A stretch of DNA of 64,000 nt from Buxus sempervirens (lineage: Eukaryota; Streptophyta; Magnoliopsida; Buxales; Buxaceae): assembly GCA_947561395.2 (NCBI GenBank), contig OX387187.1:23231829-23295828 (forward strand). Direction: 5' to 3'. Position 1 is the first letter of the stretch. Each line of letters opens with the position of its first letter. Positions 17,679 through 60,263 of the stretch are shown piece after piece. Position numbers and translations under genes: made by a program. The notes beneath the pieces are model-generated. The model searched no databases and had not been told where the DNA came from. It saw only the letters and a program-made list of their open reading frames with translations.

Positions 17679-19450
17679 CTCCTAATAGGCTTAAATTTTA
17701 ACACGGAAAAATCCACTTGGGCAACTAATTGGGTATCTTATCTTTTTTTTTTTTTTTGAAGAGAAAGTGGAAAATATATTATGATAGAATGAAACGTGGT
17801 ATTGACCTACCACCAAAATCATTAAGTACAAGATGATAGATCTGAGGAAGTGTGAGACATGGGAAAAAAAATCAAATCCTATGACTTCCTCCAATCATCA
17901 CACAGGATCAAATAAAACAAAGAGTCGCCACCATTCAATTTAGGTGTGAATGGACACCAAAATATCAAATAAGCACAAAAGGCAAATTTTAGGGTAAAAA
18001 TAACCCTCTTTAAAAAAACAACCAGAGATGGGTAAGGGGATTAAGTTATGAACAGGGGAAGGTGTTAGGCACCCCTATTCATCCACACAAGGTGGTTGCC
18101 AGGTTTTGTTCATATTAAAATAAAAGAAAAAGCTTGCTATAAAAATCACGAAAAAATCACAAAAGACAAATTGTATGGTCTTCTCATACGAATAGTCTGA
18201 TTGATCCAGAACTTTCAAATATGATCATACCATTCCTAGGGTTTCATGATCAAAATAAAATTGAGATAAAATCAATTTAAAGTGAAAAATCCAAAAATCT
18301 GACTTCAAGTTAAATTCTAGAAATCTAGAAAAATATGATTTTTATAAAATATTTCAAAATTTAACTTGAACAGTCCAGGATATAGGTAAAGCCCAAATTT
18401 CACATTAAATCAGAAAATAAAAACCAAAAATACCCACATAGATGAAAAACATCAAAAGGGGAGAACTTAGACCGTAGGGTCTTCTCTCAAAAATAGAAAA
18501 GGACTCCAAAACCATATCATGAAACCCTAGAAGTTACTTTTAGGCTTCTAGATCCAGATCTACCATATTGATCATGATAAATCCAGAATCTTAGCCTAAT
18601 ATCACGAAAATCACGAAAACAATGCTATAGGTGCAAAAGTGGCAAAAATCCAAATTTTAGGAAAAAGTGGGGATCTCATGCTATAATCATCATGAACTCA
18701 TAGGATTCATCCAGATATAAAATAAAATCATTAAAACATGATCATGATATCAAAAGCAGCCATATCTCACAGATTTGAGCACATGGGGGTCTACCCTACG
18801 GATCCACCTGTTCTCTTTTCCCCTAGCTCTTTCTTCACGTTTTACGGCTATAGAGGATTCTTGAGGCACTTGGAGGTAGGTTTGGGTACACAAACACAAT
18901 CAGAGGCCTTATTCTAGAAAAAAAGGAAAAAAACAGATATGGGGTTCTATTCTAGGGATCCACCTGTTCCCCTTTCCCCTAGCTCTCTCTTCACGTTTTA
19001 CGGCTAGAGAGACTCTTGAGGTACTTAGAGACAAGTTTAGGAAGACAAATATAACAGATGGCCTTATTCTACAGCAATGGAGAAGACTAGATTTAATTCT
19101 AGAATTGAAAACTGAAAATAAAAGGGATAAGGGACTTACCTGGATTAAGCAAGCAAGGCAGCAGGAGTTCTTCTCTTCTCTTGGAGTTCCTTGGACTTCA
19201 AAATTTCGTGGCCTTTTGCTTAAGGAGAGACCCTCTATTTATAAGCAAAGCCAGGGGCATGGTTGGTCCAAGGTTTGGCAAGATAGAGTTTCAGATTGAG
19301 TTAAACACAAGGATAATGCCAATCCTTGGCCAACAAGGATAAATGAGATAATTCGAACAGATAAATAAGGGAATTTGCTTATCCAAGAGAGATATTTTGG
19401 TGCAGATAAGGCTCAAAAATAAAAAAGGTAAAATTCGCACAAAGACCCCG

Positions 19451-19557
19451 TGCCCGTATATATATTACGGTCGCGCCCTGCCCGTATTATTAATACGGGC
19501 ACGCCGTGCCCGTATATCAACTGCGGGCATGACCAGACCGTAAACAAAATACGGGCA
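19451..19557 (-). promoter_or_regulatory. four TGCCCGTA-N7-TACGGGCA dyads at 28-bp spacing (solo LTR A)
   Basis: Units at 19451–19473, 19479–19501, 19507–19529 and 19535–19557. Each is exactly 23 bp and starts exactly 28 bp after the one before. The arms are near-palindromic; the N7 spacer differs in every unit. The array lies about 100 bp inside the 5' end of the LTR in its own orientation. Element B inserted directly at the end of the last unit. Confidence 0.85.
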
Positions 19558-21963
19558 TGTGAGACATGGAAATGTCATCTAGGATGACCTCCGACATCGT
19601 CACGCGGGGATCGATAAATGTAAGAGTCACCACCATCCATCTTAAGGTGTAAATGGACACCATGTGGTTCATGAAAGCCAAATAGAGCCAAAGTAGCTCT
19701 AATATATAGAAAAATCCAGAGATTGGGTAAGGGAAATTATTTATGAGCAAGGGAAGGTATTAGGCACCCCCACTCATCTGTCTAAGACGGTTGCCACATG
19801 CTTGCTTATGCTATAAATTGTTTGCTAATGAAATGGACAAAAAAGTGCTTATAACAAGCACAATGTATGTGACCATTCCACATGAGAAGTCTAATGAGCT
19901 TAGACTCTCTTTGTGGATCCATCACTCCTAAGACTTCATGAGTGAATAAAATCAAAGTAAAAAACAAAGAAAATCAAGCTAAGGCAAATCTAGAGAAATG
20001 AGATCAAAAGAGCTTGAAAGCTTCGATTAACCATAACTTACTCAATTTAAATCCAAATCCAATGAAACCAAAGCCATTAGAAAACTGGTATATATTAGAG
20101 TGTACAGTAAAAATTTCAACTCAATCCAATTTAAAATGAGAGAGAAATCCACATCTAAAATTTGCTGTTATAACTTGGAAAAAGTGATGAGTAGGCATTT
20201 TCAAAGTCCTATTCGTGGAGTTTGGCTCAATAAAATTCCATAAAAATTGGTATGGAGGAAGTATGTAATGCCCTCTTTCCAAAGAAAAAAGTCTCACCCC
20301 AAACTCTATCCGGATGCGACTTGTGTGCTCTCTTGAATAGGCCTAGAAGACCACAAATTAGCTCTGGACTATGCCAGCGAGCACCTCTGAGTCAATCAAG
20401 CACAGGCCTCAAATCAAATCAAAATCTACTGAAACCAGCTGGAAATGAAAATAGACTTCTCAAGGAAAACTCAGAAATTATAATCACTCAAAACGGATTA
20501 AAATTGAATAAACGGTGCACCATCAAAGCGGCAAGTTCAGCAATCTGGGCTGAACTGACTTACAAACTTTGAACAGATGGTGTCAAAAATTGGCAACATG
20601 AAAGTGGACGAACTTTTCCAGCTATAAAATAGGCACATCCATCTATCACATGTCCTTGGAATCACTCAAAAATTCATCCGGAGGATGAAGTTATAAGCAT
20701 TCCAAGACAGGCCACAGATCTGCCCTGTTTTGAAGATTTTGAATAGAAAAATGGAAACCAGTGCATGTGGATTCGACCAAAACCTTAAAAATCAACAAAA
20801 AACCATCTCATGGAGTTCTAAAATTCATTTTGGAGCCAATGGATTCAGATTTCCCGTATTGAACATGGAAATCCAAGATCTAGCTTCTTTTATAAAAAAA
20901 TGGTGGAAAGTGTGTGAATATGTGAAAATTCACTCCCTAGGAGGATGATGGAATCCTTTGATACTGAGAGCAAGGATTCACATATTTCTCCATGAGCAAG
21001 TGCAAAATATCAGAAAATAAACATCCATAGGTTTAAAATAACCACATAGCATGCTCTTCATCACTTGTAGGTTCTAAGCCTAGAGGATCCATTCCACCTT
21101 CCTTTTCCCAAGGCTCTCTCTTCACGTTTTACGGCTAGAGAGGATTCCCAGGTACTTTGGAAGGGGTTTGGGGCTAGCAAACAATCACAAGTTGGCTTTA
21201 CACTACAGAAAGGTAGAAGTTGGGAGTGAAATGTAAAGAGGGTGCTGGAAATGTAAAGAACTTTACCTTGGTAGCTTTGAACACTTGAGTAAACAATCCA
21301 GCAGAGCTTCTCCTTTTTCTTGGAGAGCTTCTAAGCCTCAAATTGTCAGCCATTTGCAAGAGGAGGACCCCTCTATTTATAGGCCAAGCCAAGGGTAGAA
21401 GAGTCCCAAGGGTAGGCCTAAAAGGCCTTCTAGATTATTCCAAATCTCCTCCAAGGCTTGAATTGGAGTAATTCAGCAAGTTTCGGAGGGTGAAATAGGG
21501 AGTTCAAGTCCCCGAGATAGAGGTAATATGCGTAAATAAGGCTCAGAGATCGAGCCATTTCGCAAATCCCCGAAACAGCCAAAACCGCATACACAGTACA
21601 GTTTCAACACAACCGTCACTCAAAGTGCGGTTCATATGCAAACTTAACCAAACCGCACATATAGGACGGTTCAATTCAGTTACGCTCGTCATAATTGCTG
21701 TCGACGTGGCTCAACGGCCGAAGCTTCGCGAAGCCACGTGGCAGCTCACGCAACAAGCATGGATATCAACCGTGCTGTGTGTGCGGTTGCAACCGCACAT
21801 ACAGGGCGGTTGAGACCAAAATTACAAAAACCGTATACTCAGTACGGTTGGCATATTTTTTTGATTGTGTTTGAATGTTTGACATATGTTAAGGCTCAAA
21901 TAAGACTTTTAAAGTTTATTTGGAGTATTCTCTTATATGGAAGTGCAATTTGGGGTGTCTACA
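19558..21963 (-). repeat. 3' LTR of element B (2,406 bp)
   Basis: Nearly identical to 52900–55306. It contains six dyads (21583–21849), the TATA region near 21385 (minus strand) and CTTCACGTTTTACGGCTAG at 21120–21138. Confidence 0.9.
21583..21849 (-). promoter_or_regulatory. six AACCG-N11-CGGTT dyads in U3 of the 3' LTR of B
   Basis: Units at 21583–21604, 21611–21632, 21651–21671, 21768–21788, 21791–21811 and 21829–21849, of 21 or 22 bp. Two triplets flank a stretch with CCACGTGGC. The nearest unit is about 113 bp from the LTR 5' end. Confidence 0.85.
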
Positions 21964-21977
21964 ACTTCCCCCTCTTC
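21964..21977 (-). other. polypurine tract of element B
   Basis: On the minus strand, GAAGAGGGGGAAGT lies directly before the TG that opens the 3' LTR, as expected for the plus-strand primer of LTR elements. Confidence 0.8.
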
Positions 21978-22306: not shown

Positions 22307-22404
22307 AACCGTACTGAACATGCGGTTTTAGCAATTTCTATTTCAACCGTTCTGTATGTGCGGTTTTCGACAAGATTAATACCAACCGTTCTGTATGTGC
22401 GGTT
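22307..22404 (+). promoter_or_regulatory. three AACCG-N11-CGGTT dyads upstream of antisense gene 1
   Basis: Units at 22307–22327, 22345–22365 and 22384–22404, each exactly 21 bp, starting 38–39 bp apart. They lie just before the G+C-rich leader of the plus-strand gene at 23690–26486. Confidence 0.85.
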
Positions 22405-23689: not shown

Positions 23690-26486
23690 ATGGCCCGTAC
23701 ACATCGCGCTTCTCGGGGTCCCGCAGATGAGCCTTCATCGTCGAGGGTTCGGAGGGATCCGGCCGATGTGGCATCTTCTTCTAGGACCGAGCCGGACCCT
23801 GATCCTTCTTCTCCCAGCAGTCTGGAGCTTTCAGATTCAGACTCTAGAGCGTCTGGGGATTCGTTGGAGTCGGCACCCGAGGTATTCTCTCTTCTTTTCA
23901 AAAAACAGACCTCTCTTTTTACCACATTCAATCTGAAACCCTCTCATTTGCTTTTCTAGCCCGTTGCCGAGGTTCAAGAGCGTAGGGGAGCTCGTCGTAG
24001 AGGTAGGGCAGGAGCCCGGGTGACTCATGTTGCCATTCCTGCGGAGATAGCGGATCAGATCCGAGATACCCCTCTCCTCCATTATTTGACGACGCATCCT
24101 TCGGCGGGCGTCAGGGCCGACATCCCTCTTGCTTATCCTTCTTCCTATTTCCGCGGGAGCTGGGCCCTTTTTGCTGATGTAGTAGCGGCCTGTTCGACTC
24201 CTTTGCGTCGAGAGATGGGCCGCTTTGGATTTGGCCCTTTCATCACCATCACTGGCGTTCGTCAGGATCGGCCTTTGATCCTGGCCCTGATGGAGCGATT
24301 TTTCCCAGAGACCTTGAGCTTTCATCTGCCTGACGTGGAGATTGGTATTCGCCCCTCCGACTTCGCTCTTATTACTGGGATCAGGATGACTGGAGATGTC
24401 ATCGCCGAGATGGATCGGCCGGCGGATTTGGAGATCGCCGAGCTCTTGGGGTATGATGAGATGCCAGTGGGGGCATGAGACCGGAGCAGGATCACTCGCA
24501 TTTCCCGGACATGGTTGAGGGAGACATTTCTGCGGAGGGGATATAGCACCTTAGCAGCGGAGCATCCCAGTTTTCCCGTGGCCTTCCGATTTCTTTTCCT
24601 TTTGATGATGGGATCATGCTTCTGCTTGGAGGACACTACTTCAATCAGTCCCCATTTCCTGAGTCTTCTTCGAGATCTGCACCGAGCGAGGGAGTACGCT
24701 TGGGGCCAGCTTGTCTACGGCACCCTGTTAGCGGGCCTACGACGAGTGGTTTCTGGCCTATCCTCTCCCAGAGGGGCTGGAGTGGGTTGCAGATTCTTTT
24801 GGCCCTTTCTGCAGGTATAAATGACTTTCTTTCTTTTTTCCTTTCTTTTTCTTCTTTCTTTTTCTTTTTTCTTTTTTCTCTTTTCTTTTTTTTCTTTTTC
24901 TTCTCTTTTTTGTCTTTGCTTATCTCTCTTTTTTTCTTTTAGTTCTTTGCTCGAGTCTACGTGGCCCATTTTCGCCCTACCTTCACACTGCCTGAGGGGA
25001 CGTTTCCCTTGGCCCGCCGGTGGAATCGGATTAGGCGCGACTCAGAGAAGAGTCGCCCTAGGTCGGCCAGGGCTCACCTAGACAGGACCTTCAGGAGAGA
25101 GGTAAGTACTTCTTCTTTTCTTTCTTTCTTTTTCTTTCTTTTTTCTTTTTGTCAGAATCTGACATTCTCCTCTGTTTATCCTCAGCTATTTGTTCCCCGT
25201 CTCGACGGCCTGCACGACGAGTTGGCTTTTCAGCCCTTTGTGGACGACGCTTTCGCCTTGGATCAGCGGCGCCAGAGGTACCCATTCTTCATCGGGCAGT
25301 TGGGTAGCATATGGTACCTCGGCGAGCGCTTCTTCTTCCAGCATACTGGAGAGCTCCGGATCCCAGTGGCTCCTCCAGCTACAGCACCTTTCACCCCTCC
25401 TGGTCCATTCGACCCTGCTCACTTCGGTGAGTGGGAGGCAGGAGATGCCCTTTTAGTCGATGGTGACTATGATACCTGGTTCGGGCAGGTCTCAGTGGGC
25501 TGTCTGATGCAGCCCATGCCCGTTCAAGGTGGAGTTACTGAGATAGGAGGGGTGGTGATCCGCCTATACGATACCACGGTATGAATCTCCTTTCCTTGTG
25601 CAGTCTTTTAGTCTTCCTTTCTTATTTACAGATATCTTTTCTCTTCTTATCTCATTTCAGGAGGCACAGCTAGAGGAGGTCCGGCCTAGATATGCGGATC
25701 TGGAGCGCCAGCTGGCAGAGAGGGACGCTGCCATAGCTGAGAGTGACGTCATCATCACTGGGCAGGCCGCTCTTATTGCCGACTTGCGGGCCCAGTTGGC
25801 CAGTGCTCAGGGCCAGGCGGGGCCTTCAGGAGCTCAGGTCTGTCTTTTTTAGTTTCTGTATTTTTTCCTTTATCTTTTCTGCTTCTGATCAATCTGTCTT
25901 TGCCTTTCAGGAGGATGTGGCAGCTTCGCCATCCAGTTCTCGTACTCTATCCTTTTCCTTAGGAGCTGCAGAGATCCCAGAGAGAGAGACTGAGGTGGCG
26001 GCCGAGGCTACTTCTGCTGCTGGAGTTCCCGAGTCAGCCGAGGTGCCCGAGGTTGTACCCTTGCCTGAGACTGCTCCTGTATCTGAGCTAGAGACCGCTC
26101 TGGAGACGGCGGAGGGTGACTCAGATGTTCCTGTGGTTCCTGAGGTGGCTGTGCCCGTGAGAGAGGAGGGGATGCCAGATGTAGCTGAGCCCGAGGTGGC
26201 AGAGGTGCGTGATGCAGCGGATCCCACAGATTCCGCTCCTGCTGTTAAGGATTCCCGGGTTCTAGAGCTGGTCCCTTTGGCGACGGATACTTCAGTCTCC
26301 TGCTTCATGGACCTGTCTCGGGATGATCCAGTTCCAGCCTCGTCTACTGATCCTGCGCCTCCTGCTGACCCGGTGCCTCCTGCTAGTCCTTCTACTCCTG
26401 CTGAGCCGTCTTTTCCTGCTAGCCAGCGCTTCTCAGATCATTTCTTCATCCGGCAGCGACGGCGAGGTAGAGGCGAGGGAGATTGA
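23690..26486 (+). CDS. antisense gene 1 of element B: plant mobile domain-like protein
   Basis: Runs opposite to gag–pol near the 3' end of the element. A probable leader intron (GTAAGTGG from 22780 to TGTAG at 23689) precedes the ATG at 23690. The coding blocks (23690–23880, 23960–24815, 24943–25100, 25186–25580, 25660–25838, 25911–26486) are split by T-rich GT…AG stretches that look like normal plant introns. The second block has the plant mobile domain style (WALFADVV, GRFGFGPFITITG, SFHLPDVEIGIRPSDFALIT). Later blocks give a coiled coil (ERQLAERDAAIAESDVIITG) and a long P/E/A/V-rich tail. The G+C content is much higher than in the flanks. Such antisense genes are known in Tat-lineage elements. 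As a fossil part it shows about one break. Confidence 0.6.
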
Positions 26487-26717: not shown

Positions 26718-26835
26718 AACCGTACATACAGGGCGGTTATGCAAGAACCGTGCTTATCCCGCGGTTTTTAAACTTTGCGGGAATGCAACCGCACATTAAG
26801 TGCGGTTCAGGCATAACCGTTCTGTGTATGCGGTT
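26718..26835 (+). promoter_or_regulatory. four AACCG-N11-CGGTT dyads upstream of antisense gene 2
   Basis: Units at 26718–26738, 26746–26766, 26787–26807 and 26815–26835, all exactly 21 bp. They end about 130 bp before the ATG at 26967 and so occupy the likely promoter or leader. Confidence 0.85.
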
Positions 26836-26966: not shown

Positions 26967-28620
26967 ATGGCTTCTGATTCAGCTTCTGTGCCATCTTCAT
27001 CTTCTGTACCTGAAACATTAGCACCTAGGCCAAAAATTAGGTCCAAACCTCCCAATTTGACTAGGTATGCCATTGTAGATGCTTATTATGAAAGGTGGGT
27101 TGATTCAATGACCCCACAGGATGAGATAGATTGGGATTCTGCCAATCTAGGCCACCTTCTCTCAATCCCAAAGGTTCCCTTAAAATGGGAAATCATAGAT
27201 GCATTGATTGGGCATTGGGAACCCCAATTGAACCTCTTTCGGTTTGGGGAAAAAGAGATGACCCCTACAGTCGAGGAGGTTGAAACCATCCTCAACCTTA
27301 GGTTCTCCAAGAAAGTTGTCAACCCACCTCTCAAACCAAGCTTCAAAAAGGAAGCCTCTACCTTTTTAGGAATTAACAAGAAAGAGTTAGGGGAAGCTGA
27401 CGCCTTATTGACTCTATCAAAGTCATTTTTGACTGAAAAGCTGTTGAATAGCCCAAACCAATCGGCTCGGTTCAATGCTTTGACCTTGATAGTGGTCAAC
27501 CAACTTTTATTCCCCCGAGGTGATAGCGAGGTTGATTTATCCCTCATTTCAGTCATTTGCCAAGTTAGGGAGCTTGAAAGGCTTGCCCCTATGATCCTGG
27601 ATGAAATATACCAGGCCTTGACTGACTGCTATCACCGGAAGCAGAAAAGTTTCCTCGCCTGCGCCCCTATACTTCAGGTAAAATCTGAACCTCTTTCTTT
27701 GAATTACAGCTTTTATTGCAAAATTGAGATTTTCTAAGTTAGAAATGCTTCCCTTTTATTTGCAGCTCTGGCTACTTGACCACCTGAGTCAAGTTGAAGA
27801 GATAACCCGCCGCTTCTTCCCCAGATTGAACATTCCTGTCCTGATGAGCAACAGGGGGTGTCCCAACATCCACGGTGGCAAACAGGGATGGTTTGCTTTC
27901 TTGGGGACGCTTCAGGATGACCAGGTGAGATGGCCTGGTGCTTATCAGCCTTCTGTCGAGACAGTGATCAGCTTCTCCGATCAGAATTTCGCTGTGCTCA
28001 TGGGCTTGAGGTCTGCCTTGCTCTACTTGCCTTTGAGGGTCATCCGGCAGTTTGGAGAGGAGGTACACGGGATTTTGGTACCTCAAGGATATGAAGAGTT
28101 CATAGGTCCGCTCACCCCGGCCACCATGGGACTATGCTTCCACCTGTTGAAGGACTGGTCGCAGGCTTGCTTCTTGAGAGGTCCTGTCTTCTCCAAATTG
28201 CATGAGAAGGACTATCTCTTTTGGATTAGAGAGCAGGTGCAGAGCTGCGCTTCTGTACCGGTGGATCCTCCTGCTATCCCGTGTCCTACTTATGAGGACC
28301 TCTTGGAGACTGAGCGGGCTTCTCATAGACGGCTTCAGCACATATGGGTGGAGGAGGCCCGAACTTTGAGATTGGAGAAGGAGGATCTGGAGAGACGGTT
28401 ATCAGAGCAGATACAGGCCCGTCGCTTCGAGGTGAGAGCCGCGTGGCGTAGGCATGATGAGACCATGACCAGGCTCAGAGATATGAGGACCACGCAGACC
28501 CTCTCAGATGACGTCATCTCATTCCTCAGTGACCCAGATGCAGAGGGGGCTGAAAGGCTTGTGGCGGTTCAGGCGGCTCGGATCAGAGAGCTTGAGGAAA
28601 GGCTAGGGGATAGAGATTAG
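26967..28620 (+). CDS. antisense gene 2 of element B: DUF7745-type protein
   Basis: Two coding blocks, 26967–27678 and 27766–28620, separated by a short stretch with GTAAAATC at one side and TTTGCAG at the other, a likely intron. The first block has the layout seen in plant DUF7745-type, transposon-associated proteins: WVDSMTPQDEIDW, ALIGHWEPQLNLFRFGEKEM, TPTVEEVETIL, then CAPILQ. The second block ends in a coiled coil rich in R and E (ERLVAVQAARIRELEERLGD). It is a part of the fossil element; both blocks look open. Function unknown. I rate it a candidate DNA-binding or regulatory protein only by inference from the dyad arrays. Confidence 0.6.
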
Positions 28621-29028: not shown

Positions 29029-29142
29029 AACCGTGCATTCAGAACGGTTTAGCCAAAACCGTCTTCAATATGCGGTTGCATAGCCCTTCCGCCAAAACCG
29101 TAGTAAAAGGGCGGTTTGGTTCAATCTGTATCCCAAGTGCGG
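29029..29142 (+). promoter_or_regulatory. three AACCG-N11-CGGTT dyads plus a degenerate one, behind integrase
   Basis: Units at 29029–29049, 29057–29077 and 29096–29116, each 21 bp, then a half-conserved unit ending at 29142. They lie between the end of antisense gene 2 and the end of integrase. Confidence 0.8.
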
Positions 29143-29659
29143 TTGGTGACCTTTTTCTTGTTTCTTTCTTTTCTTTTATTCTTTTTTCTTTTGCCTTTTC
29201 TTTGCCAATATTGCCCCTAGTGCCTGTTATGGTTTTCACTAGGACCGGCTTATTTATTCCGTCATTGCCCTTTCAACACCGCGAGCTTGAAGGAATACAC
29301 CCAGATCACCAAGGACTTGACCAATAGGACGAAATGAAGGCTGGATTGAGTTTATGAAAGAAGGTTATTATAGGCTCAAAATTTTGACATCTTGAAAATG
29401 GGACAACTGGGCTTACAGCTATAATGGATGCGACCCCCATTCCCAATATTGGCCTTTTTTTCCTTTTCTCTGTATTTGGCCCTTCTTTGCTATTTTCCTT
29501 TTTGTGTTTTTTTCTATTAACCTTGCCCCAGTCGCGACTGTAAGCTCCAGTTTGGGTTCTTTAAAACACGAACAGGCTTAACTTGGTTTAATCTAGGGAT
29601 ATTAAAATTTGTGAGGGATAAAGAAAAATGGCCTCGGATCATTTCTTTGTGATATTCCT

Positions 29660-31381
29660 TCAAGGGAAATATTGTTTGACTGCATCGGAGTTAATTGGCT
29701 CAGGAAAATCTGCCCCATCCATTTCTGCCAAGATGAGAGCGCCTCCAGACAAGACCTTCTTCACTACATAAGGTCCTTCCCAATTTGGCTTAAACTTTCC
29801 GCGAGGGTCTTCCAGAAATGGCATCTTCTTTAAGACTAAATTACCCACTTGGAAAGCTCTGGGCTTCACCTTTTTATTGTAGGCTCTGGCCATTCTCTTC
29901 TGATACAGTTGACCGTGGCAAAGCGCATTCAAACACTTTTCTTCTATCAAATTGAGTTGCTCATATCTAGACCGAACCCATTCAGCCTCTTCAAGTTCTG
30001 TTTCCATAAGCACTCTCAATGAAGGGATTTCTACTTCAACAGGTAAGACTACCTCCGTTCCATAAACCAAGGAATACGGCGTTGCCCCAGTAGAAGTTCG
30101 GATTGAGGTTCTGTAAGCATGGAGAGCAAATGGTAACATCTCGTGCCAATCCCTATAGCTCACTACCATCTTCTGGATTATTTTATTTATGTTCTTATTC
30201 GCCGCTTCTACTGCTCCATTCATCTTCGGCCTGTATGGGGCTTACTTGTGATGAGTTATCTGAAACTGCTCACACATCTTCTTCATATCCTTGTTCTTAA
30301 TATTTGAAGCATTGTCTGAAACTATGGCTTTTGGCAACCCATAGCGACAAATTATGTTGTGCTTCAGGAACTTAAGAACATGGTTTCCTGTAATATTTGC
30401 ATACGAAGCAGCTTCAACCCACTTTGTAAAATAGTCGATTGCCACTAGAATGAACCGGTGTCCATTAGACGCTTTTGGAGAAATCATCCCAATGACGTCA
30501 ATACCCCACATAGAGAAAGGCCATGGAGAGGTCATGCTGTGCAACTCACTTGGTGGTGCATGCTTATTGTCAGCGTATATTTGGCACAAATGGCATCTCT
30601 TAACATGTAGGCAACAATCGTGCTCCATTGTAGACCAATAATATCCCAATCGCAGTATTTTCCTTGCGAGCATGTGTCCATTCATATGCGGCCCACAGAC
30701 TCCTCCGTGCACTGTTTCAATCAACCTTTCTACTTCAACCTTGGTGACGCATCTGAGTAGAACATTACTGTAAGATCTCTTGTATAGCTGCCCACCACTT
30801 AGGAGGAACTGCCCTGCTAACCTCTGTATTGTTCTTTTTTCAGTAGGACTAGCGCTTTCTGGAAAACTTTGATTATTCAAGAAATTCTTGATATCTTGAA
30901 ACCATGGTATTTCTGCTTCTTGCGCTCCTTCTAAAACAAGACAATAAGCTGGCTCGTCTCTGACTTCAATTTCAAGTGGTTGTATGTCTACCCCTTCCGG
31001 AATACTAACCATCGAAGCCAATGTCGCCAAGGCATCCGCAAACTGATTTTTAGACCTTGGCATATAGCTAAAAGAAATTCGAGTAAATTTGGTACTTATT
31101 TCTTCCAAATATTGGTGATATGGGATCAATTTATGATCTTTGGTTTTCCATTCCCCAGTTGTTTGGAAGATGATAAGACTCGAATCCCCATATACGTCAA
31201 GTTCTTGAACATCATGATTTAGAGCAACTTGCAATCCGATTATACATGCTTCATACTCTGCTATGTTGTTCGTGCACTGAAACCTCAATTTCACTGCGAT
31301 TGGGATATGTAAACCATCTGGCTTCACTAATACTGCGCCGATCCCATTTCCATTCATATTTGCAGCCCCATCAAAGAACAT
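29660..31381 (-). CDS. element B: second RNase H and integrase region
   Basis: Fossil coding region on the minus strand. It opens with a second RNase H domain (MFFDGAANMNGNGIGAVLV; IAEYEACIIGLQVALN; FADALATLASMV) of the kind that marks the Tat lineage. Then come a zinc-binding HHCC integrase start (HMLARKIL … CHLCQIYADNKHAPP), an integrase core (WGIDVIGMI; YFTKWVEAASYAN) and an integrase tail (WEGPYVVKKVLSGGALILAE). It ends at about 29660. It is not whole; about one break is visible. Confidence 0.85.
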
Positions 31382-32100
31382 CTACCAGGAGTCTTCACTT
31401 TCTTCCTCTTCAGCAAATAAGATAGCCTCATCAAGGAAATTCGTCTTAAGAGGTTGATAATCTGGTAATGGATGCTCAGCTAGATGATCAGCAATTGCCT
31501 GACCTTTAATTGCTTTTTGAGTGACATATGTCAGGTCGAATTCCGAAAGCAAAAGCTGCCATTTTGCTGTTCTACTAGTTAAAGCCGGCTTTTCAAACAG
31601 ATATTTTAACGAATCCATCCTGGAAATCAACAAAGTTGAATAGCTTAAGAAATAGTGCCTAAGCCTCTGAGTTGCCCAGACCAAAGCGCAACAAGTCTTT
31701 TCCAAAGGCGAATATCTCGTCTCATAATCTGTGAACTTCTTGCTCAAATAATAGATAGCCTTTTCTTTTCTACCTGTTTCATCATGCTGCCCCAATACAC
31801 ATCCCATTGATGTTTCTAAAACTGATAGATACAGAATCAATGGTTTTCCTGGAGTTGGCGGTACTAGAACAGGTGGATTTAACAGATAGTCCTTTATTTT
31901 GTCAAATGCTTGTTGGCAATCCTCATTCCATATAGTTGGGTTATTCTTCCTTAGAAGCTTAAAGATCGGCTCGCAAATAGCAGTGAGTTGTGCTATGAAC
32001 CGGCTAATATACTGTATTCTTCCCAGAAAACCCCTAACTTCCATTTCAGTCTTAGGAGATGGCATCTCAATGATTGCTTTTGCTTTAGACGGGTCTATCT
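31382..32100 (-). CDS. element B: end of reverse transcriptase and first RNase H
   Basis: Fossil part. On the minus strand it reads VRGFLGRIQYISRFIAQLT, YETRYSPLEKTCCALVWA, LRHYFLSY and LLLSEFDLTYVTQKAIKGQA, the usual RT connection and RNase H of Gypsy elements. Solo LTR E lies directly upstream of it. Confidence 0.85.
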
Positions 32101-43724: not shown

Positions 43725-43725
43725 T

Positions 43726-44761: not shown

Positions 44762-44766
44762 AATAC

Positions 44767-45840: not shown

Positions 45841-47106
45841 CCATATGCAGCCTCAAATGTCAAAGGGACCTCTTCCCAATTTTTTAGTGCAAAGCCCTCT
45901 GGAGCAGGTGGTACAGTGCAAACCTGCTCTTCCTCAAGCTCTTGATCTGATACCATCATTACCGGATTTGAAAAACTGCCCTTTTTTGCTTCGGGGCTGA
46001 GTTCAAAGGTGACTTCATCTGGGATCTTGATTGAGGCCCAGTCAATAAAAGGAACCTCTTTTCCTGCTTTCTCTCTTCCTTCATCCTCTGTCATTGCAAA
46101 GAATGCCCCTGCCTCTTCTGTGAAATCCTGCTACTCTTGTGGCAGTGGCTCAGGCTCATCCATGGCTTTGGGCGCCAAAGTGGGTGAGAGGGGGATAAAA
46201 GGTTGAAGGGTTGAGGTAAAAGGTTTTCTGAAAGGATTATCATTAAAATATGGAGGTCTGGAGGAATCTGAAGGAGGAGACAATTGAATGGTATGAGAGG
46301 GCTTCGGAAAAGTTTCCCTTAAATGAGGGAGTTTTCCTTGATTTTTTTTCCCTTTCATTACCATTTTCTTTTTGTGATCCCCTCTTCCATCTTCTTATTT
46401 TCATCCCTAGTCCTGCTCGTGGGACTAGCCTCTGTGCCTCTATGGGCTCCACTCTACCTTGTAGATTAATTCCCAACCCCTTCCCTGGGTGGAAATTGCA
46501 ATCTTTCAGAACCTTCTCCACCATCTTGTTGGTGCATGTCAACTTCTCATTCTTTTTTAGACACCCCCCAGGTATGAAGTTGACTGTTTCAAACTGAAAA
46601 GAATGAAACGTAATTTTGTCTGCCGTTAATTCTACATTAATGAAAGGTACGTCAGGTGGTATGACGGGAGGGACTAGACTCTCGGCTAGGACAGTTATCA
46701 CCCTTTGACCCCTTATATATTTTACTCTTTGATGAAGGGTGGATGGTATAGCCCTAGCTGAGTGGATCCACGGCCTTCCCATAAGTAGATTGAAGGCAGC
46801 CGGAATATCTATCACTTCGAATGTGATATTAAAGATATTGGGTCCGATGGTAATCGGCAATTCAATCTCCCCTAGAAAGTGTGTTTTGGAGCTATCAAAA
46901 GCTCTCACTATCCTTCCGTTCTGCTTTATTTTAGACTGGTCCAGACCAAGCCTTACAAATGTTACCAAGGGACAGACGTTTAAGGCTGACCCATTGTCAA
47001 TTAGGACCCGGGCTATCATGCTACCCTTACAAAGCACAGTGATGTGCAAAGGGTCCACATGATAACATCCACCAGGACTTATCTCGCTTTCTGAAAAGCT
47101 TATCAC
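45841..47106 (-). CDS. element B: protease region and linker to RT
   Basis: Fossil part. The minus strand has the aspartic protease core MIARVLIDNGSALNVCPL, then FNLLMGRPWIHSARAIPSTL, both typical for Gypsy/Tat. A G-patch-like stretch (FHPGKGLGINLQGRVEPIE; PRAGLGM) follows, as often seen in this lineage. About two breaks are visible before RT. Confidence 0.8.
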
Positions 47107-47121
47107 ATTGTGAGATAAGAT

Positions 47122-49655
47122 CTAGCCGATCATCATGCCGAGCTGGTCTGGCTCAATTGTCTTAGGCACATGAGCACTCTGGAGTACCTTTATTAATGAG
47201 TCCCTATGCTTTTCTGAATTAAGCAATAATCCCAGTATTGATATCTGGGCAGGGACCTTGATTAATTGGTCGACAATGTTGAATTCACTCTTTTTCAGTA
47301 TTTTTAGGAGGTCTGCTGCCTCATCATTTATAACCTGGGGGGTGTCTTCCCCTATCTTGGCCTTCCCCTTCTGGACTTGCTCTGCCTCTTTCTTTTCTTG
47401 TTCCTTTCCTTCCACACATCTCCCTGATCTTGTCATGAGATTTACCTCCTCCTGACCCTGATTCCTGGCCACTGGGATAGTGGTCGTATAACCCTCGCTG
47501 TAATTCCAAGGTACAGCAGTTTCTGAATAGGAGGGTTTAGGGACGTTAAATACCAAGGGTTGGAGATGAGACCTTGGTACAGGAGTTGATGTGGGAATGA
47601 GGTTAGAAGAAGGCACCTCAATAACCAGAGGCGAGGATTGCCTGGGTTCCTTGGGTTGAGAGGATTTCAAGGTCTGAGAAGAAACGGATGTAATTGATGC
47701 TGTGGTGGGGTCATAATTAATGACCAAAGGTGGTTTAGACGATGAAGTAGGTGGAGGAGCAACAGCCTGGTTGCAATTAATGATGAGAGGGGGTTTGATT
47801 ACATTAAGCTGGGCCATGAGGGAAGCGGCCCGGTTTAAAGAGGCATTAATGTCCTCTGCAATCTTGCCATTTCCTTTACTTCCAGAAATGACATTGATTT
47901 GTTCCCCTATATCTTCTTGGTCAAAATAGACCTTAACGGACGTCCTTATTGGTGCAATTAACTGCGAGGGATCAAACGTCCTAGGTCCAGAAGAGATGGT
48001 CCCTACAAAATTGGAAGGACCAGCCCCATTATGCTGGGGCACAGGATTCTGACCAATGTCAGTCCTGGCGGGAGAGGGTGCAGCCGTGTTAAACAACAAG
48101 GTTCCCTGATCGATCAAATCCTGAATTGCATGTTTTAATGGCCAACACCTGTCTGTAGGGTGTCCTGGTGCACCCATATGGTATTCACAGGTGGTGGAGG
48201 GATCGAAATTCTTTCCCTTCGAAGCATTCGGATTTGGTTCTTTCAGGGTAACATACCCCGCGTTTAACAGAGATGGCAATAGCTGGGACGGAGTCACAAG
48301 AAGAGGGGAAAGGACCCTATTCCTTCTGGACGCCATCCAAGCGTCTCTCTCCTCTTTCTAGAATACCCTTTTTTGATTGGGCATTGCTGCTTGAGGAACA
48401 TTAATATTGAGAGGGTTTTGATAGGTCGATTGTGGCTGCACTGGGCTGGATGGAGTTGCAGAAATATTGACGTGAATTGGTTTCTTGGGTGGTTGGAGTT
48501 GTACCATATTTACTTCCCCTTCCTTCTGCCCTCCGTTCCTTCTTGCCCCATTTTTTTGCTTCTGGGCAGAAGGATTAGAAGTGGGCTCTTGCTGACGAGC
48601 CGAGGCAGTGTGGTCATAAATTCACCCGGATCTGATTCCATCCTCAATCCGGTCTGCAACTTGCACTAGAGCAGCAAAGCTGGTGGTAATCTGACCCACC
48701 AAGTGATTGTAAAATGGCTGCCCCAGTGTGCCAATGAAGGTGGTAACCATCTCTGGTTCCATCATGGGAGGCCTAACCTGAGAGGCGGTTTCCCTCCACC
48801 TTTTGGCATATTGCCTGACTGTCTCTTCTCTTCCCTTGCTCATCTTCATCATATCATACCTGTCGGCACGATGTCAGCATTGAAACGGTACTGAGCAAGG
48901 AAAGCATCAGCTAGGTCCTTCCACCTTCTGATTCTGCCGTGGTCCACAGTTGCAAACCATCTCAAGGCTGCCCCAGTTAGGCTTCTCTGGAATAGCTGGA
49001 TCAGGATGCCATCATCCCGGCCAAATTGGCACAACGCCCCACAGTAGAGCTTCAGATGGCTCATTGGGCAGCCGGTGCCGTCATATTTCTCGAAGTCCGG
49101 GCACTTAAATTTGGCCGATAGGCACGCGTCGGGGTACATGCAGAGATCTTTAAAATTGGTACCACCCAATGTGTTGATCCCCCTTACTTCTTTTAGCTCC
49201 TCTTGAATGGACTCCAGCTTGTCCAAAAATTTTCTCTCCACTTCTACCCTCAGCCTCTCCTTTTCTTTTTCCTTCTCCCTCTCATATTCAGATTCCTCCT
49301 CCCGGATCAAGATAGGTTCGGGGGTTGGCTGGTAGAGTTCAGGTTGAGGTGGAATAGGTTGGATTGGTGGTGGAAGGTCAGTCTGGGGTTGAGCTGGTGG
49401 TGCATTATGGGATGATGAAGCCTGGTGAACCTGAGCCTGCGCCTGCATCTGAGCCTGAGTGGCTTGATTGGCCAGCAAATTCTCCAGTAGTTTTGTCATC
49501 CCTGCCACTTGCTCTTGCAGTTGAGCAAAGGCTTCGACAGACACAGTAGATTGTTCTTCAATAGGATTCATAGTGGCAGATTTCAATCTCTGAGAACGTC
49601 GAGGAGCAATGATTGCAGTAGAAACCGAAAACCTTGTGTAAAAGAAAAAAGACAA
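47122..49655 (-). CDS. element B: gag region
   Basis: Fossil part on the minus strand. The likely protein start is MNPIEEQSTVSVEAFAQLQE, near 49571. It continues into a Q/P-rich stretch and the retrotransposon gag core (CPDFEKYDGTGCPMSHLKLY; FQRSLTGAALRWFATVD; WKDLADAFLAQYRFN; ETVRQYAKRWRETASQVRP). Near the C-terminus there is a zinc-knuckle-like CEYHMGAPGHPTDRC with WPLKHAIQDLIDQG, as in Tat gags. Several breaks. Confidence 0.85.
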
Positions 49656-50049
49656 AGAAAAAATATTAGTATCCCATTAAATCAATTTTACACACCTATG
49701 CATGCATGCATGTAGGCTTGGTGAACATGAGTTTGGGATTTTCCTTGTATTCATATTTTTTTGCCTTTTGGATTTATGGTTAAAATAACCTTATTAGAAT
49801 GAGGTGATTGATACGAAAAAGATCAAACCATAGAAATTCTGTTGGGGTATTCTAGGGCCTCCAACATGTCCCACAAAAAAATGAGATGTCCAAAGTAAAA
49901 ATCCTTAGACAAACTCGAGACTTGGAATTACGCAAGCTTCCAAGGGCTTATGCTTTGGAATTAAGGCTTCCACAACCTCCTGAAATTACGCAGGCTTTCA
50001 GGTGCCTATGATTTTCTAAATTCAGGCTTTAGAAGGCCTATGAAGGTTT

Positions 50050-51205: not shown

Positions 51206-51292
51206 AACCGTGCATTCAGGACGGTTTGGTCCAAACCGTATGATACATGCGGTTGCAGCGAAAATGCAGACAACCGTATACTCAGAACGGTT
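51206..51292 (-). promoter_or_regulatory. three AACCG-N11-CGGTT dyads in the leader of B
   Basis: Units at 51206–51226, 51234–51254 and 51272–51292, each exactly 21 bp. Confidence 0.85.
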
Positions 51293-52897: not shown

Positions 52898-52899
52898 GT

Positions 52900-55306
52900 T
52901 GTGAGACATGGAAATGTCATCTAGGATGACCTCCGATATCGTCACGCGGGGATAGATAAATGTAAGAGTCACCACCATCCATCTTAAGGTGTGAATGGAC
53001 ACCATGTGGTTCATGAAAGCCAAATAGAGCCAAAGTAGCTCTAATATATAGAAAAATCCAGAGATTGGGTAAGGGGAATTATTTATGAGCAGGGGAAGGT
53101 ATTAGGCACCCCCACTCATCCGTCTAAGACGGTTGCCACATGCTTGCTTATGCTATAAATTGTTTGCTAATGAAATGGACAAAAAAGTGCTTATAACAAG
53201 CACAATGTATGTGACCATTCCACATGAGAAGTCTAATGAGCTTAGACTCTCTTTGTGGATCCATCACTCCTAAGACTTCATGAGTGAATAAAATCAAAGT
53301 AAAAAACAAAGAAAATCAAGCTAAGGCAAATCTGGAGAAATGAGATCAAAAGAGCTTGAAAGCTTCGATTAACCATAACTTACTCAATTTAAATCCAAAT
53401 CCAATGAAACCAAAGCCATTAGAAAACTGGTATATAGTAGAGTGTACAGTAAAAATTTCAACTCAATCCAACTTAAAATGAGAGAGAAATCCACATCTAA
53501 AATTTGCTGTTATAACTTGGAAAAAGTGATGAGTAGGCATTTTCAAAGTCCTATTCGTGGAGTTTGGCTCAATAAAATTCCATAAAAATTGGTATGGAGG
53601 AAGTATGTAATGCCCTCTTTCCAAAGAAAAACGTCTCACCCCAAACTCTATCCGGATGCGACTTGTGTGCTCTCTTGAATAGGCCTAGAAGACCACAGAT
53701 TAGCTCTGGACTATGCCAGCGAGCACCTCTGAGTCAATCAAGCACACAGGCCTCAAATCAAATCAAAATCTGCTGAAACCAGCTGGAAATGAAAATAGAC
53801 TTCTTAAGGAAAACTCAGAAATTAGAATCACTCAAAACGGATTAAAATTGAATAAACGGTGCACCATCAAAGCGGCAAGTTCAGCAATCTGGGCTGAACT
53901 GACTTACAAACTTTGAACAGATGGTGTCAAAAATTGGCAACATGAAAGTGGACGAAATTTTCCAGATATAAAATAGGCACATCCATCTATCACATGTCTT
54001 TAAAATCACTCAAAAATTCATCCGGAGGATGAAGTTATAAGCATTCCAAGACAGGCCACAGATCTGCCCTGTTTTGAAGATTTTGAATAGAAAAATGGAA
54101 ACCAGTGCATGTGGATTCGACCAAAACCTTAAAAATCAACAAAAAACCATCTCATGGAGTTCTAAAATTCATTTTGGAGCCAATGGATTCAGATTTCCCG
54201 TATTGAACATGGAAATCCAAGATCTAGATTCTTTTATAAAAATATGGTGGAAAGTGTGTGAATATGTGAAAATTCACTCCCTAGGAGGAGGATGGAATCC
54301 TTTGCTACTGAGAGCAAGGATTCACATATTTCTCCATGAGCAAGTGCAAAATATCAGAAAATAAACATCCATAGGTTTAAAATAACCACATAGCATGCTC
54401 TTCATCACTTGTAGGTTCTAAGCCTAGAGGATCCATTCCACCTTCCTTTTCTCAAGGCTCTCTCTTCACGTTTTACGGCTAGAGAGGATTCCCAGGTACT
54501 TTGGAAGGGGTTTGGGGCTAGCAAACAATCACAAGTTGGCTTTACACTACAGAAAAGTAGAAGTTGGGAGTGAAATGTAAAGAGGGTGCTGGAAATGTAA
54601 AGAACTTTACCTTGGTAGCTTTGAACACTTGAGTAAACAATCCAACAGAGCTTCTCCTTTTTCTTGCAGAGCTTCTAAGCCTCAAATTGTCAGCCATTTG
54701 CAAGAGGAGGACCCCTCTATTTCTAGGCCAAGCCAAGGGTAGAAGAGTCCCAAGGGTAGGCCTAAAAGGCCTTCTAGATTATTCCAAATCTCCTCCAAGG
54801 CTTGAATTGGAGTAATTCAGCAAGTTTCGGAGGGTGAAATAGGGAGTTCAAGTCCCTGAGAGAGAGGTAATATGCGTAAATAAGGCTCAGAGATCGAGCC
54901 ATTTCGCAAATCCCCGAAACAGCCAAAACCGCATACACAGTACGGTTTCAACACAACCGTCACTCAAAGTGCGGTTCATATGCAAACTTAACCAAACCGC
55001 ACATACAGGACGGTTCAATTCAGTTACGCTCGTCATGATTGCTGTCGACGTGGCTCAACGGCTGAAGCTTCGCGAAGTCACGTGGCAGCTCACGCAACAA
55101 GCATGGATATCAACCGTGCTGTGTGTGCAGTTGCAACCGCACATACAGGGCGGTTGAGACCAAAATTACAAAAACCGTATACTCAGTACGGTTGGCATAT
55201 TTTTTGATTGTTTTTGAATGTTTGACATATGTTAAGGCTCAAATAAGACTTTTAAAGTTTATTTGGAGTATTCTCTTATATGGAAGTGCAATTTGGGGTG
55301 TCTACA
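52900..55306 (-). repeat. 5' LTR of element B (2,407 bp)
   Basis: In its orientation it opens TGTAGACACCCC at 55306 and closes CCATGTCTCACA at 52900. It differs from the 3' LTR by about 1–2 bases per 100 by eye. Confidence 0.9.
54927..55193 (-). promoter_or_regulatory. six AACCG-N11-CGGTT dyads in U3 of the 5' LTR of B
   Basis: Units at 54927–54947, 54955–54976, 54995–55015, 55112–55132, 55135–55155 and 55173–55193. Five are 21 bp and one is 22 bp. They are upstream of the TATA region of the LTR. Confidence 0.85.
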
Positions 55307-55786
55307 GGGCATGACCAGTTTGGCCAGATTTTACACTTTTTTGACATGTTTTAAATCCCAATTAATATTTTCACTTATTTTCTCATTTTTAGTGCAATTT
55401 GGGGTGTCTACAGGAAGGACCTGATGCGTCTAGAAACAAGGGAAATGGTCTAAGGCGAAAGTTGCCAAACCATTGGTGACAGAGTTTGCTTCTCTAAATA
55501 TTTTGGCAAAAACAACAGAGTGGAAAAGAGAACAGAGATGACGCGCCTCATCGAGGAGATAGTCAATTCACCAGATATGAGAATTGGCAGACGTGAGGCA
55601 GGATATCCTAACCTAAGAGTCACTCTCTATAATAATCTTTTCAGCATTTATAGCAAGCGCACACTTAAGGCCTTCGATGAGCGCATGAGCTTCCGCTTGA
55701 ATGCATGGCATCAGAAATACCAATGGAGTGTGCCAAGGCACATTTGACTCTTCCGTCCGCGTCCCGAACCACGACCCCTATAGCAG

Positions 55787-57161: not shown

Positions 57162-57963
57162 ATGACTATGAAGGTTCAAGTCATGTCCCAAGAGATCATC
57201 AACCCATCCTCCCCAACTACCCAAAAGCTTAGAATTTTCAAGCTTTCACTATTAGATCAGCTTGCTCCTTCAGAAAACACTCCAGTTATCTTCTTATACC
57301 CACCCACCATTACCGGCAAAACCGGAGCCACCAGACGATCGAATCGGCTCAAGAATTCCCTGTCGGGACACACTGACTAGATTCTACCCACTCGCCGGAA
57401 GAATCAAAGATGAGATCTCGATCGAGTGCCACGATGAGGGGGTTCATTATTTAGAAGCTCAAGTCAATTGTCACCTCATGGAGTTTCTCATAGGTCCTGA
57501 TGTCAAGTTACTGAATCAGTATCTTCCATTTGACCTGTATTGCACTAATTCCACCTCCATTAATGATGTCCAATTAGCTATTCAGGTGAACAACTTCGAT
57601 TGTGGGGTAATGGCTTTGGGTCTCTGCGTTTTACACAAGATAGTCGATTGTGCTTCATTGAGCACTTTCGTTAATGCTTGGGCTGCCACAGCTTGAGGAT
57701 CAAATGAAGCAGTACAACCCAGTTTCAGTTCTTCCTCTCTCTTTCCCCAGAGAGATTCACTGGGAGGGTTTACACTGAACACCATGAATTTTTCAGGGAA
57801 CCCCATTACAAGAAGATTTGTGTTTGATGCTTCTAACATAAAAGCCCTCAAGTTGAAAGCAAGCAAAGGCATTTACGGAAAGCCACCCTATTTACATCCT
57901 ATATGACAAACGAATAAGAAAAGGGCACATGGTGCCTATGTTGCTTATTTAGGCCATGGCATC

Positions 57964-60263
57964 TGTAGACACCCCAAATTGCACAAACAATCATCAAAAA
58001 TCATTATCTCCTTGAAAGCCAGAACAGAAATTGAAGAAAATAAACTTTTACCTGTATCCGGATACTCAGGCCGGATACAAGTACTCCTTCCTGTATCTGG
58101 TTACTCATACCGGATACATGTGAGCCTTAGTGTATCCGGTACCATGTACCGTATACCTTAAGGCCCTTTTGTATCCGGTCTGATATACCGGATACATTAA
58201 GTTTGCTCAAAATTAGGGTTTTCCGAGAGCTTTTCACTTTTACCATCATATCCCTCATTAAATGAGTGGAAATCGCGGAAATAGCCTTAGGGTTAAGGTT
58301 GGTGGGCTATAGACATTATGTTGTGTCTACCATTCTCACCAACCCTAACCCTAGCCTTTGCCTATAAATAGGAGGCTCCTCCTCAAGCAAATGGACTCAA
58401 CTCTTGTTTTGAATTCTCGCAAAGAAGAACTCCAAGAGAAGAAGAAAACCGCTGCGGAATCGCCTCCAGAACTTAGGTAAGCCTCAACTTTTCTTTTTAT
58501 TTTCTGTCTTTATATTCCTAGATCTAGATCTCTTCTTCTACCTTTCTGTAGTGTAAAGCCTTGTTTGTATGTGTGGAAATCCTTCCCCGGCTCAAAGTAT
58601 CTCAAGACTCCCCTAGCCGTAAAACGTGAAGGCGGATCTAGGAGAAACGAGACTGGGGATTGACCCTAGTGCTAGAACCCATGTAGCATAAGACCTTTTT
58701 GATTGATTGAAAACCGTTCCATATTCAAAGAACCCTTGATTATCTTGAAGAACCGTGTTTAACGGGGAGAGAGAACAGAGGGAAACGATAATTGAACGGA
58801 ACCATAGGCTGTATTAGAACCCTATTTGGATGAATATGTATGCATGCTATTGATCTTGTTTGGTTTTTTACACTTGCACATACATATCACTATTTTGGCG
58901 GGATAGGCTCATATTTGGGGTTTATTGCATTTATTGTGATAAATCTCAAATAAATGGCCTCAATCAATTCTGGAATGCCTTTTGGATGATTTTTAAAGTA
59001 TTTGTGTTCATCTTGCACGAATCACATATTTGTATCAATTTTCGGATTTGGTTTTTTCTTCAAGAATGGCTTAGCTTGACAGCACTTGTACCCCTACTTC
59101 GGACGCCCATAACTTCATCATCCGGATGAATTTTGGGGCGATTCCAAAACCATGGGAAAGGTGAGGCTGTCTAGTTCATGTCCACCAAATTTCACAAATT
59201 TCTATCTAGCGGATTTTTGACACCTCTCTGTCGAAGTGGAGTGGACAGTTTAGGTTCAAATACAGAACTTGTCACTTTGACGGAGCGCCATGTGTTCGAT
59301 TTAAGTCTGATTCGAATGATTTTTGTTTCTATGCACTCCTTTATGAGTCTATTTTCAAATCCAGTTGGTTTCATAATTTTTGGATTCCATTTGAATTATT
59401 GGTAGCCGATTTACTCAGAACTGTTCATTTGTACTTTTCTGGGTAAATCTGTGATTTTGGGGGCCTGTTTGGGAGACCACCCAAGGCACATCCGAAGGGA
59501 TTCTTGTATGAGACTAGTTTCTATTGAAAGATGGCCATACAGACTTCAATCACACCAAATTTCGTGGATTTTTATGTAGTGGATTTTTCTAGACAATTTT
59601 CCAAAGTTGCCCACTTATCACTTTTAAAAATCCCCAGCAGCAACTTCAAAGGAGCATAACTCCTAGGATTTTTATCGGAATGGATTGAAATTTTGTATGA
59701 AACTCTTATTTACCCTAATCTTTCAAATGGATTTGGTTTGGTTCAATTTAATATTGGATTTGAATGATTTTAAGGCAAATGGCATACTTTTTACCAAACT
59801 TCCCGGATTTGATTCAACTTGGTTTTGAGCAACTTGTGCTTTGATTTCCATCCTTTTGTGGTATTCCAGAAATGATATTGACATAAGAGAGGATCTAGAA
59901 TCCATTTAGATCTTCATGTGAAAATATCACACATTAGTCCTTTTTCAAGGTTTTCTATGATTTTAGCAAGCTTTCTATTTTTGCATGAACATACACTTGG
60001 CTACCACTTCGTGTGGATGAATGGGGGTGCCTAACACCTTCCCCCGTTCATAATCTAATCCCCTTACCCATCTCTGGATTTTATTTTCAAGTAGGATTGT
60101 TTTTATCCTATAATGTTTTTTTTTTCACTTTTTGCTTATTTTGAATTCTTTGGTGTCCATTCTCACCCCAAAATCATGAATGGTGGCGACTCTCCCGTTT
60201 TTGCGTTGAGCCCGTGTGTTGACGGAGGGATGATCATTCCGGTGATTTTTCCCATGTCTCACA
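57964..60263 (+). mobile_element. solo LTR C, Tat/Ogre-type (2,300 bp)
   Basis: From TGTAGACACCCC to CCCATGTCTCACA with a perfect 5-bp duplication GCATC (57959–57963 and 60264–60268). TATA region in CCTATAAATAGGAGG near 58370, CTAGCCGTAAAACGTGAAGG at 58612–58631, and GGGTGCCTAACACCTTCCCC near 60024. Its U3 array (58053–58196) has its own dyad type. Related to LTRs A, B and D but clearly a separate family. No internal region. Confidence 0.9.
58053..58196 (+). promoter_or_regulatory. four TGTATCCGG-N9-CCGGATACA dyads at 39-bp spacing (solo LTR C)
   Basis: Units at 58053–58079, 58092–58118, 58131–58157 and 58170–58196. Each is exactly 27 bp, and each starts exactly 39 bp after the one before. 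The N9 spacers differ. They lie 89 bp inside the LTR 5' end and upstream of the TATA box. Confidence 0.9.

Follow-up and report, generated by a model that had tools for sequence, protein, structure and literature searches.

Palindromic repeated motifs have been described in the Sireviruses (Ty1/copia) by Bousios et al. (2010): in the parts of that account used here, 12 of the 13 motifs have a CGG/CCG core, the motifs cluster in the long terminal repeat (LTR) upstream of the TATA and again upstream of the ENV gene (77 of 79 linker copies), and they are reported absent from classic Ty1/copia elements (PMC2829016). In the VANDAL/VANC system of anti-silencing, the available descriptions tell of short, family-specific motifs, tandemly repeated in non-coding DNA and turning over rapidly (PMC5735166, PMC10398659), with repeats placed in the introns of VANB21 and VANC21 and upstream of VANA21 (PMC5735166). 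We report here on dyad arrays in Tat-type LTRs of four families related to each other (A, B, C and D), present in one 64,000-nt stretch of Buxus sempervirens DNA (contig OX387187.1, positions 23,231,829 to 23,295,828 of the forward strand), called the window below; all counts refer to this window and to these four families. An earlier note on this DNA had proposed that related LTRs keep the place and dyad form of an array in U3 (the unique 3′ region of the LTR), its motif being replaced by unrelated arms. The copia element Tnt1 likewise has regulatory boxes repeated in tandem in its U3 (BII boxes) and varying from one subfamily to another, and in this they resemble the dyad arrays; we know of no matching internal arrays in Tnt1, nor of changes on both arms around a fixed core.

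Solo LTR A lies on the minus strand, its main part at 17851..19557 and its first 101 bp, the 5′ end past an insertion of element B, at 55312..55412. Its array consists of four TGCCCGTA-N7-TACGGGCA dyads (19451..19557, minus strand) with a core-to-core gap of 11. As the earlier note had stated, these are 23-bp units with an exact period of 28 bp (starts at 19451, 19479, 19507 and 19535), and they show 2, 0, 1 and 2 mismatches to TGCCCGTA-N7-TACGGGCA over 16 arm positions. The description of solo LTR C (57964..60263, plus strand) was equally accurate: four 27-bp TGTATCCGG-N9-CCGGATACA dyads (58053..58196, plus strand; starts at 58053, 58092, 58131 and 58170) follow each other with a period of exactly 39 bp and a core-to-core gap of 22, with 0, 1, 2 and 0 mismatches over 18 arm positions. 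The motif given for B, AACCG-N11-CGGTT, was found in 27 exact N11/12 copies in the window (24 N11, 3 N12), every one of which lies in B or in the B-like solo LTR D (13949..16840, plus strand; 85% identity to B, array layout as in B), an LTR absent from the earlier note. The U3 of the B 5′ LTR (52900..55306, minus strand) carries six AACCG-N11/12-CGGTT dyads, one of them with 1 mismatch (54927..55193, minus strand), in two groups of three at LTR positions 114-380; the B 3′ LTR, also Tat-type (19558..21963, minus strand; 98.5% identity with the 5′ LTR), has the same array at 21583..21849 (minus strand).

Arrays begin at LTR position ~102 in A, 114 in the B 5′ LTR and 90 in C, and the TATA region follows at 416, 584 and 400, respectively. 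The distance of 90–115 bp inside the LTR that had been noted before is therefore right for A, B and C, and wrong for D (~575). Aligned columns shared with other LTRs amount to 55-57% for A and 57% for C. The TATA region (TATAAATAG) is conserved across the LTR families, the B 5′ LTR having GAAATAG instead, and the CTAGCCGTAAAACGTGAAG box is kept exactly among them.

The arms are not unrelated. CCG-N11-CGG is common to types A, B and C, as well as D: placed in register, TGC.CCG.TA-N7-TA.CGG.GCA (A), AA.CCG-N11-CGG.TT (B) and TGTAT.CCG.G-N9-C.CGG.ATACA (C) share this core, and while loop sizes (7, 11 and 9) and arm lengths (8, 5 and 9) differ between A, B and C, the consensus core distance is constant at 11. 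The letters flanking the core are family-specific and altered alike on both arms, over 2-5 bp outside it and, in A and C, one or two inside. The idea of a motif replaced with its place and dyad form kept survives in part: dyad form, array design and, in three of the four families, the place in U3 are maintained, but the arms are not wholly replaced. Part of their letters do switch on both arms, around a CCG/CGG pair at inner distance 11 that A-D hold in common.

The window contains 36 copies of CCG-N11-CGG, compared to 1.83 on average and 7 at most in 200 dinucleotide shuffles, and this pattern ranks first among 1,984 combinations of inverted trinucleotide and spacing; CCG/CGG at the other inner distances from 0 to 40 occurs 2 to 12 times each. 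All 36 copies are inside elements A-D, and 31 are inside arrays. The other five stand at LTR 3′ ends (16790, 19591 and 52933) or elsewhere in B (22500 and 25681). The exact core is present in every one of the four A units. If three dyads of such arm and loop sizes are drawn at random, they have any trinucleotide in common at equal inner distance in ~0.001 of draws.

Spacing between neighbouring cores is also regular. Measured from CGG to the next CCG, all 3 gaps of A are 11 and all 3 of C are 22, while those of B are 11, 21-24 or 6; in total, 18 of 20 gaps fall within 1 bp of 11 or 22. This count omits D and the B 3′ LTR, which are homologues, as well as the interval that separates the two groups in each LTR. 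The binomial value of 1.5e-5 for these gaps is too optimistic, since two of the B arrays, those at 29029 and 51206, seem to be copies of a single module, and the gaps within one array are not independent.

A CCG-CGG distance fixed despite changing loop and arm sizes, the paired changes of the flanks and the gaps of one or two helical turns are what a DNA-binding dimer would require. Our preferred, though tentative, reading is that the arrays are cis-regulatory and serve as operator-like targets of such a dimer, which may be formed by the plant mobile domain (PMD) proteins of the element itself, in a VANC-like manner. The predicted protein, probably dimeric, would hold a CCG and a CGG half-site separated by 11 bp, and neighbouring sites would come one or two helical turns further on (gap of 11 or 22 bp), on one face of the helix. 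The family-specific flanks change on both arms alike, as would be expected if protein and sites changed together.

Could the arrays have arisen by neutral tandem duplication of chance palindromes, without function? The constant periods of 28 and 39 do indicate tandem duplication. However, the arms were kept while spacers and linkers diverged: mean pairwise identities of arms and spacers are 0.84 and 0.40 in A, 0.92 and 0.39 in C, and 0.97 and 0.43 in B (over 19 units, of which 14 are internal and 5 come from the 5′ LTR, without the N12 unit), and linker identity is 0.60 in A and 0.42 in C. Moreover, the core and gap lengths recur in separate families, and the arms, CpGs included, change more slowly between B and D. 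Comparing the B 5′ LTR with D, the arms differ at 3 of 60 columns, against 24 of 140 other array columns (p 0.014) and 273 of 2,013 in the LTR after the array (p 0.03), and the spacers at 11 of 67 columns. Of their CpGs, the arms kept 10 of 12, the remainder of the U3/array 6 of 13 and the part of the LTR beyond the array 14 of 33 (arms compared to the latter, p 0.02). The p-values of these arm and CpG comparisons (0.01-0.04) are modest. Taken with the other points, neutral duplication appears very improbable. Plain microsatellite growth is ruled out by the kept arms (0.84-0.97) and diverged spacers (0.39-0.43).

When oriented, the B spacer has an asymmetric consensus, YNCTGWRTRTR, with a mean identity of 0.55 and a column homozygosity of 6.28 (maximum of 4.15 in 60 shuffles); the B site is for this reason a pseudo-dyad. 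An inner spacer common to B and C (CTGAGTAT in one unit of each, noticed by eye) was rejected as not significant.

The dyads could also act as nucleic-acid structures, that is, as hairpins of U3 RNA, as cruciforms or as sources of double-stranded RNA attracting small RNAs. Indeed, each of the 8 Tat array segments tested has a better fold than its shuffles have on average (z from -1.9 to -11.7), both-arm changes between families would also fit stem covariation, and Sirevirus palindromes are small-RNA hotspots according to the part of PMC5311732 considered. Such folding is nevertheless expected of any tandem dyad array. Loop size varies by family while the CCG-CGG distance stays at 11, and a hairpin would not need a fixed core distance. 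The B arms pair over just 5 bp, complementarity within the inner spacers is below expectation (27 pairs against 37.7), and the mismatched units, as read by eye, show no paired change within any one family. A hairpin-like series in the copia LTRs of the window has the opposite pattern, a constant loop with changing stems. We regard the structural explanation as improbable, less so than neutral duplication.

This copia series is found in the two LTRs of a Ty1/copia element nested in B (35325-35550 and 44310-44535), where a constant loop, TGGATT, is flanked by different complementary stems (GTAGG, CTCAG, CGATC, CAGCTTG, CAGTTCG and CAGCTTG). Stems of 5-8 bp are present at 12 of the 17 TGGATT of the two LTRs (6 of 9 in one and 6 of 8 in the other), compared to at most 2 bp at the 47 TGGATT elsewhere in the window, and the first five hairpins fold cleanly (z -5.2). 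Stems that vary around an invariant loop suggest that this series is an RNA signal.

The earlier note had treated the dyads as a feature of U3. They are indeed in the LTRs, but in B they also stand outside them, at four internal places of 3-4 dyads each, two of which are upstream of PMD-type genes that are antisense to gag and pol. These genes, the antisense open reading frames aORF1 and aORF2, are both on the plus strand. Array 1 (22307..22404, plus strand, 3 dyads) ends 10 bp before CATATAAG (22415-22422) and precedes aORF1 (23690..26486, likely ATG at 23690, several likely exons and introns by eye). Array 2 (26718..26835, plus strand, 4 dyads) is 131 bp upstream of the ATG of aORF2 (26967..28620), which has likely exons at 26967-27677 and 27766-28620, a single likely intron and a frame open up to the last codon; its exon 1 matches DUF7745 (70.1 bits) and PMD (36.3 bits, with a PF10536 cut-off of 34.9), both at scores exceeding the Pfam cut-off. 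Array 3 (29029..29144, plus strand, 3 exact and 1 relaxed dyads) has the end of aORF2 on one side and that of pol on the other, and array 4 (51206..51292, minus strand, 3 dyads) in the leader, from the 5′ LTR to gag, with CATATAAGC 63 bp beyond it (51142-51134). None of the 13 exact internal B sites falls within the listed coding stretches (10,609 of 21,127 bp). CATATAAG stands close to two internal arrays, which is nothing special given its 7 copies in the window.

Unit orientations alternate in array 2, and the four-dyad segment 26710-26840 makes up one large inverted repeat (fold of -75.4 kcal/mol, z -11.7). In array 1, CATGCGGTTT (22319-22328, within a B dyad) is one base off the Arabidopsis DOWN motif CATGCAGTTT, which is linked to MAIN/MAIL1-dependent genes. 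Four further one-mismatch matches to CATGCAGTTT exist elsewhere in the window, so that the match of the B half-site is only a lead.

As B has the same site in its LTR, in its leader and ahead of each antisense gene, a single regulator could act on the whole element and switch or protect its promoters. The first candidate for the binder would be the antisense PMD proteins of the element family, working like the VANC of VANDAL, with an effect that would be activating or anti-silencing. The likeness to VANDAL that the earlier note had put forward is strengthened here, as the B dyads recur internally upstream of element genes in the way described for VANC motifs in the part of PMC5735166 used.

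Alternatively, CCG-N11-CGG may be bound by a dimer of a host transcription factor, the flanks following paralogues or expression niches and the antisense genes being driven by the same factor. We hold this quite possible, and it stands as a close rival behind the PMD candidate. One core with different flanks by family would suit a single class of host factor, and for the U3 boxes of Tnt1 and the palindromes of Sireviruses the differences between families reportedly follow host-factor paralogues or expression niches. What a host factor accounts for less well is that B has four internal places with 3-4 dyads each, of which two precede antisense genes and one is in the leader, and that the flank letters switch on both arms by family. 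To our knowledge there is no plant factor with a CCG-N11-CGG site, which also counts against this alternative; no motif database was searched. In its favour, according to the part of the Sirevirus account drawn on, cis-boxes of LTRs are often sites for host stress factors within repeats, and the CGG-CCG palindromes mainly recovered stress-factor sites in PLACE (PMC2829016).

Compared to the described systems, the Sirevirus motifs are the nearest known counterpart. The dyad arrays work like them, without being a member: both have palindromic units with a CGG/CCG core and family-specific letters, placed upstream of the TATA and of an extra gene, as far as the Sirevirus account covers these features. 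Unlike Sireviruses, B has gypsy-type domains, and A, C and D are LTR relatives of B. The core distance depends on the element in Sireviruses (Table 3 of PMC2829016), whereas it is 11 in all family consensuses here. The extra genes are here antisense PMD genes rather than ENV, and the available text of PMC2829016 mentions no antisense PMD gene; nor do its sections 9 and 19 contain a rule such as that of the 11 or 22 gaps. With VANDAL, going by the available accounts, the arrays share motifs that lie in non-coding DNA of the element, upstream of its own genes, and differ by family. VANDALs are, however, DNA transposons (Mutator-like elements, MULEs) with a VANC gene, whereas these are LTR retrotransposons. 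In the available part of PMC5735166, the VANC21 motif YAGTATTAY is arrayed in one orientation and is not described as palindromic. The VANDAL/VANC system is defined by a protein of the element that binds the motif and takes away DNA methylation; such binding is proven for VANC, whereas we infer it here from the arrangement of the sites. Finally, the accounts of antisense genes in Retand, Ogre and Grande elements give, in the parts considered, no target sites for the proteins (PMC11963269, PMC7264820, PMC6317226), unlike the present case with dyad arrays upstream of both antisense genes and in the LTR. Among the matches listed from the open-access literature, there was no report of such dyads in Tat/Ogre elements. 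New here are dyad arrays in Tat/Ogre elements together with a testable protein candidate, the palindrome-array design itself being already known from Sireviruses.

The more specific proposal would be a self-regulating, VANC-like system of Tat/Ogre elements, in which antisense PMD proteins bind promoter arrays of CCG-N11-CGG and families gain independence from one another through paired flank changes about a core that stays fixed. In this complete form we consider it rather unlikely. A co-evolving protein made by the element would bind the sites, and the antisense PMD genes are the named candidates for it. Several observations weigh against our preferred reading of the arrays. Among the sites themselves, three dyads of the B and D copies are N12 rather than N11, only 2 of the 4 C units hold the exact core, and extra sequence ahead of the D array, which brings its start to ~575, breaks the constant distance from the LTR start. 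The B arrays may be copies of one module, and their units would then not be independent. Sharing of the B spacer consensus is not significant with C (p 0.80 over all 11 positions, 0.19 over the inner 9) or with the inner 7 positions of A (p 0.12); over all 11 positions of A it gives p 0.00025, but these include the paired TA letters of A. As for promoters, array 1 is ~1.3 kb before the likely aORF1 ATG, CATATAAG is present at 7 places in the window and is hence weak evidence of promoters, array 3 has no clear promoter adjoining, and the avoidance of coding stretches has a p of 0.06 with the four clusters as unit. With regard to the genes, the PMD of aORF1 comes in two successive pieces (29.6 and 23.5 bits), both below the Pfam PF10536 cut-off of 34.9, and an in-frame stop separates them in this copy (24476); with sub-threshold pieces and a stop, other copies would have to supply a working pair. 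For A and C, which are present as solo LTRs, no antisense genes are visible. In the part consulted of a 2023 Arabidopsis paper, direct chromatin contact of MAIN/MAIL1 is left open (PMC9899485).

If true, the proposal would mean that the proteins of antisense PMD genes in plant retrotransposons, and by extension the host MAIN/MAIL1, function by binding DNA in a sequence-specific way. What antisense genes do in such elements is unknown according to the parts considered of PMC7264820 and PMC11963269, and a defined site upstream of PMD genes and in the LTR offers a direct test of their role and of contact between PMD and DNA. In addition, gypsy-type elements would be seen to have the palindrome-array design known from Sireviruses, by convergence or by a shared binding mode.

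Element B is full-length, on the minus strand, with a target duplication GGGCA/GGGCA. It sits exactly in the last dyad arm of array A (GGGCA at 19553-19557 and 55307-55311). Solo LTR A has ends TGTAGACACCCC / ATGTCTCACA and a 5-bp target duplication GGAAG/GGAAG; those of C and D are GCATC/GCATC (a perfect 5 bp) and GCCAT/GCCAC. The coding parts of B are broken by stops and by the nested Ty1/copia element, which starts near 34740 and separates the gag/reverse transcriptase part from the 3′ part of pol. The former (44629..49676, minus strand) comprises gag (a weak Pfam match, below cut-off), a G-patch part and reverse transcriptase; the latter (29660..32194, minus strand) comprises RNase H, a second RNase H and integrase in three stop-to-stop frames, hence stop-interrupted. 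With Pfam, RT_RNaseH was found at 31382-32194, followed by RVT_3/RNase_H and integrase at 30242-31381, and Tat elements are defined by a second RNase H domain between RNase H and integrase in the relevant part of PMC6317226. The same source, in that part, reports PMD genes in 57% of Ogre elements, and the PMD of aORF2 gives B this extra gene of Ogre. From its domains, B would belong to the Tat lineage of Ty3/gypsy, the PMD gene being the one trait that points to Ogre over Retand.

Of 842 candidates in a protein homologue search with the first half of aORF2, none passed, its comparison with the PDB by sequence gave three chance-level matches only, and an AlphaFold model of exon 1 from the single sequence was discarded (mean predicted local distance difference test, pLDDT, of 39). 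A 379-residue RNase H/integrase piece had no relatives in viral_contigs. One conserved LTR word matched one phage contig, which was rejected as a chance 18-mer; a second conserved LTR word had no match in viral_contigs and was found in four bacterial contigs of genome_contigs, judged by title.

A few other features were noted. The B leader, between the 5′ LTR and gag, contains a 78-bp tandem repeat in 6.3 copies (49991-50478). Within the nested copia element, an extra open reading frame (41968-42927) matches Pfam Transposase_32 (PF20167, E 8e-28). LTR D carries an insert at 14387-14480 with complementary ends (TTATTTACATGTAATATC ... GATATTACATGTAAATAA), which by eye resembles a miniature inverted-repeat transposable element (MITE). 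Just before solo LTR C, a fragment of a BAHD acyltransferase-like gene was recognised by eye at 57256-57696.

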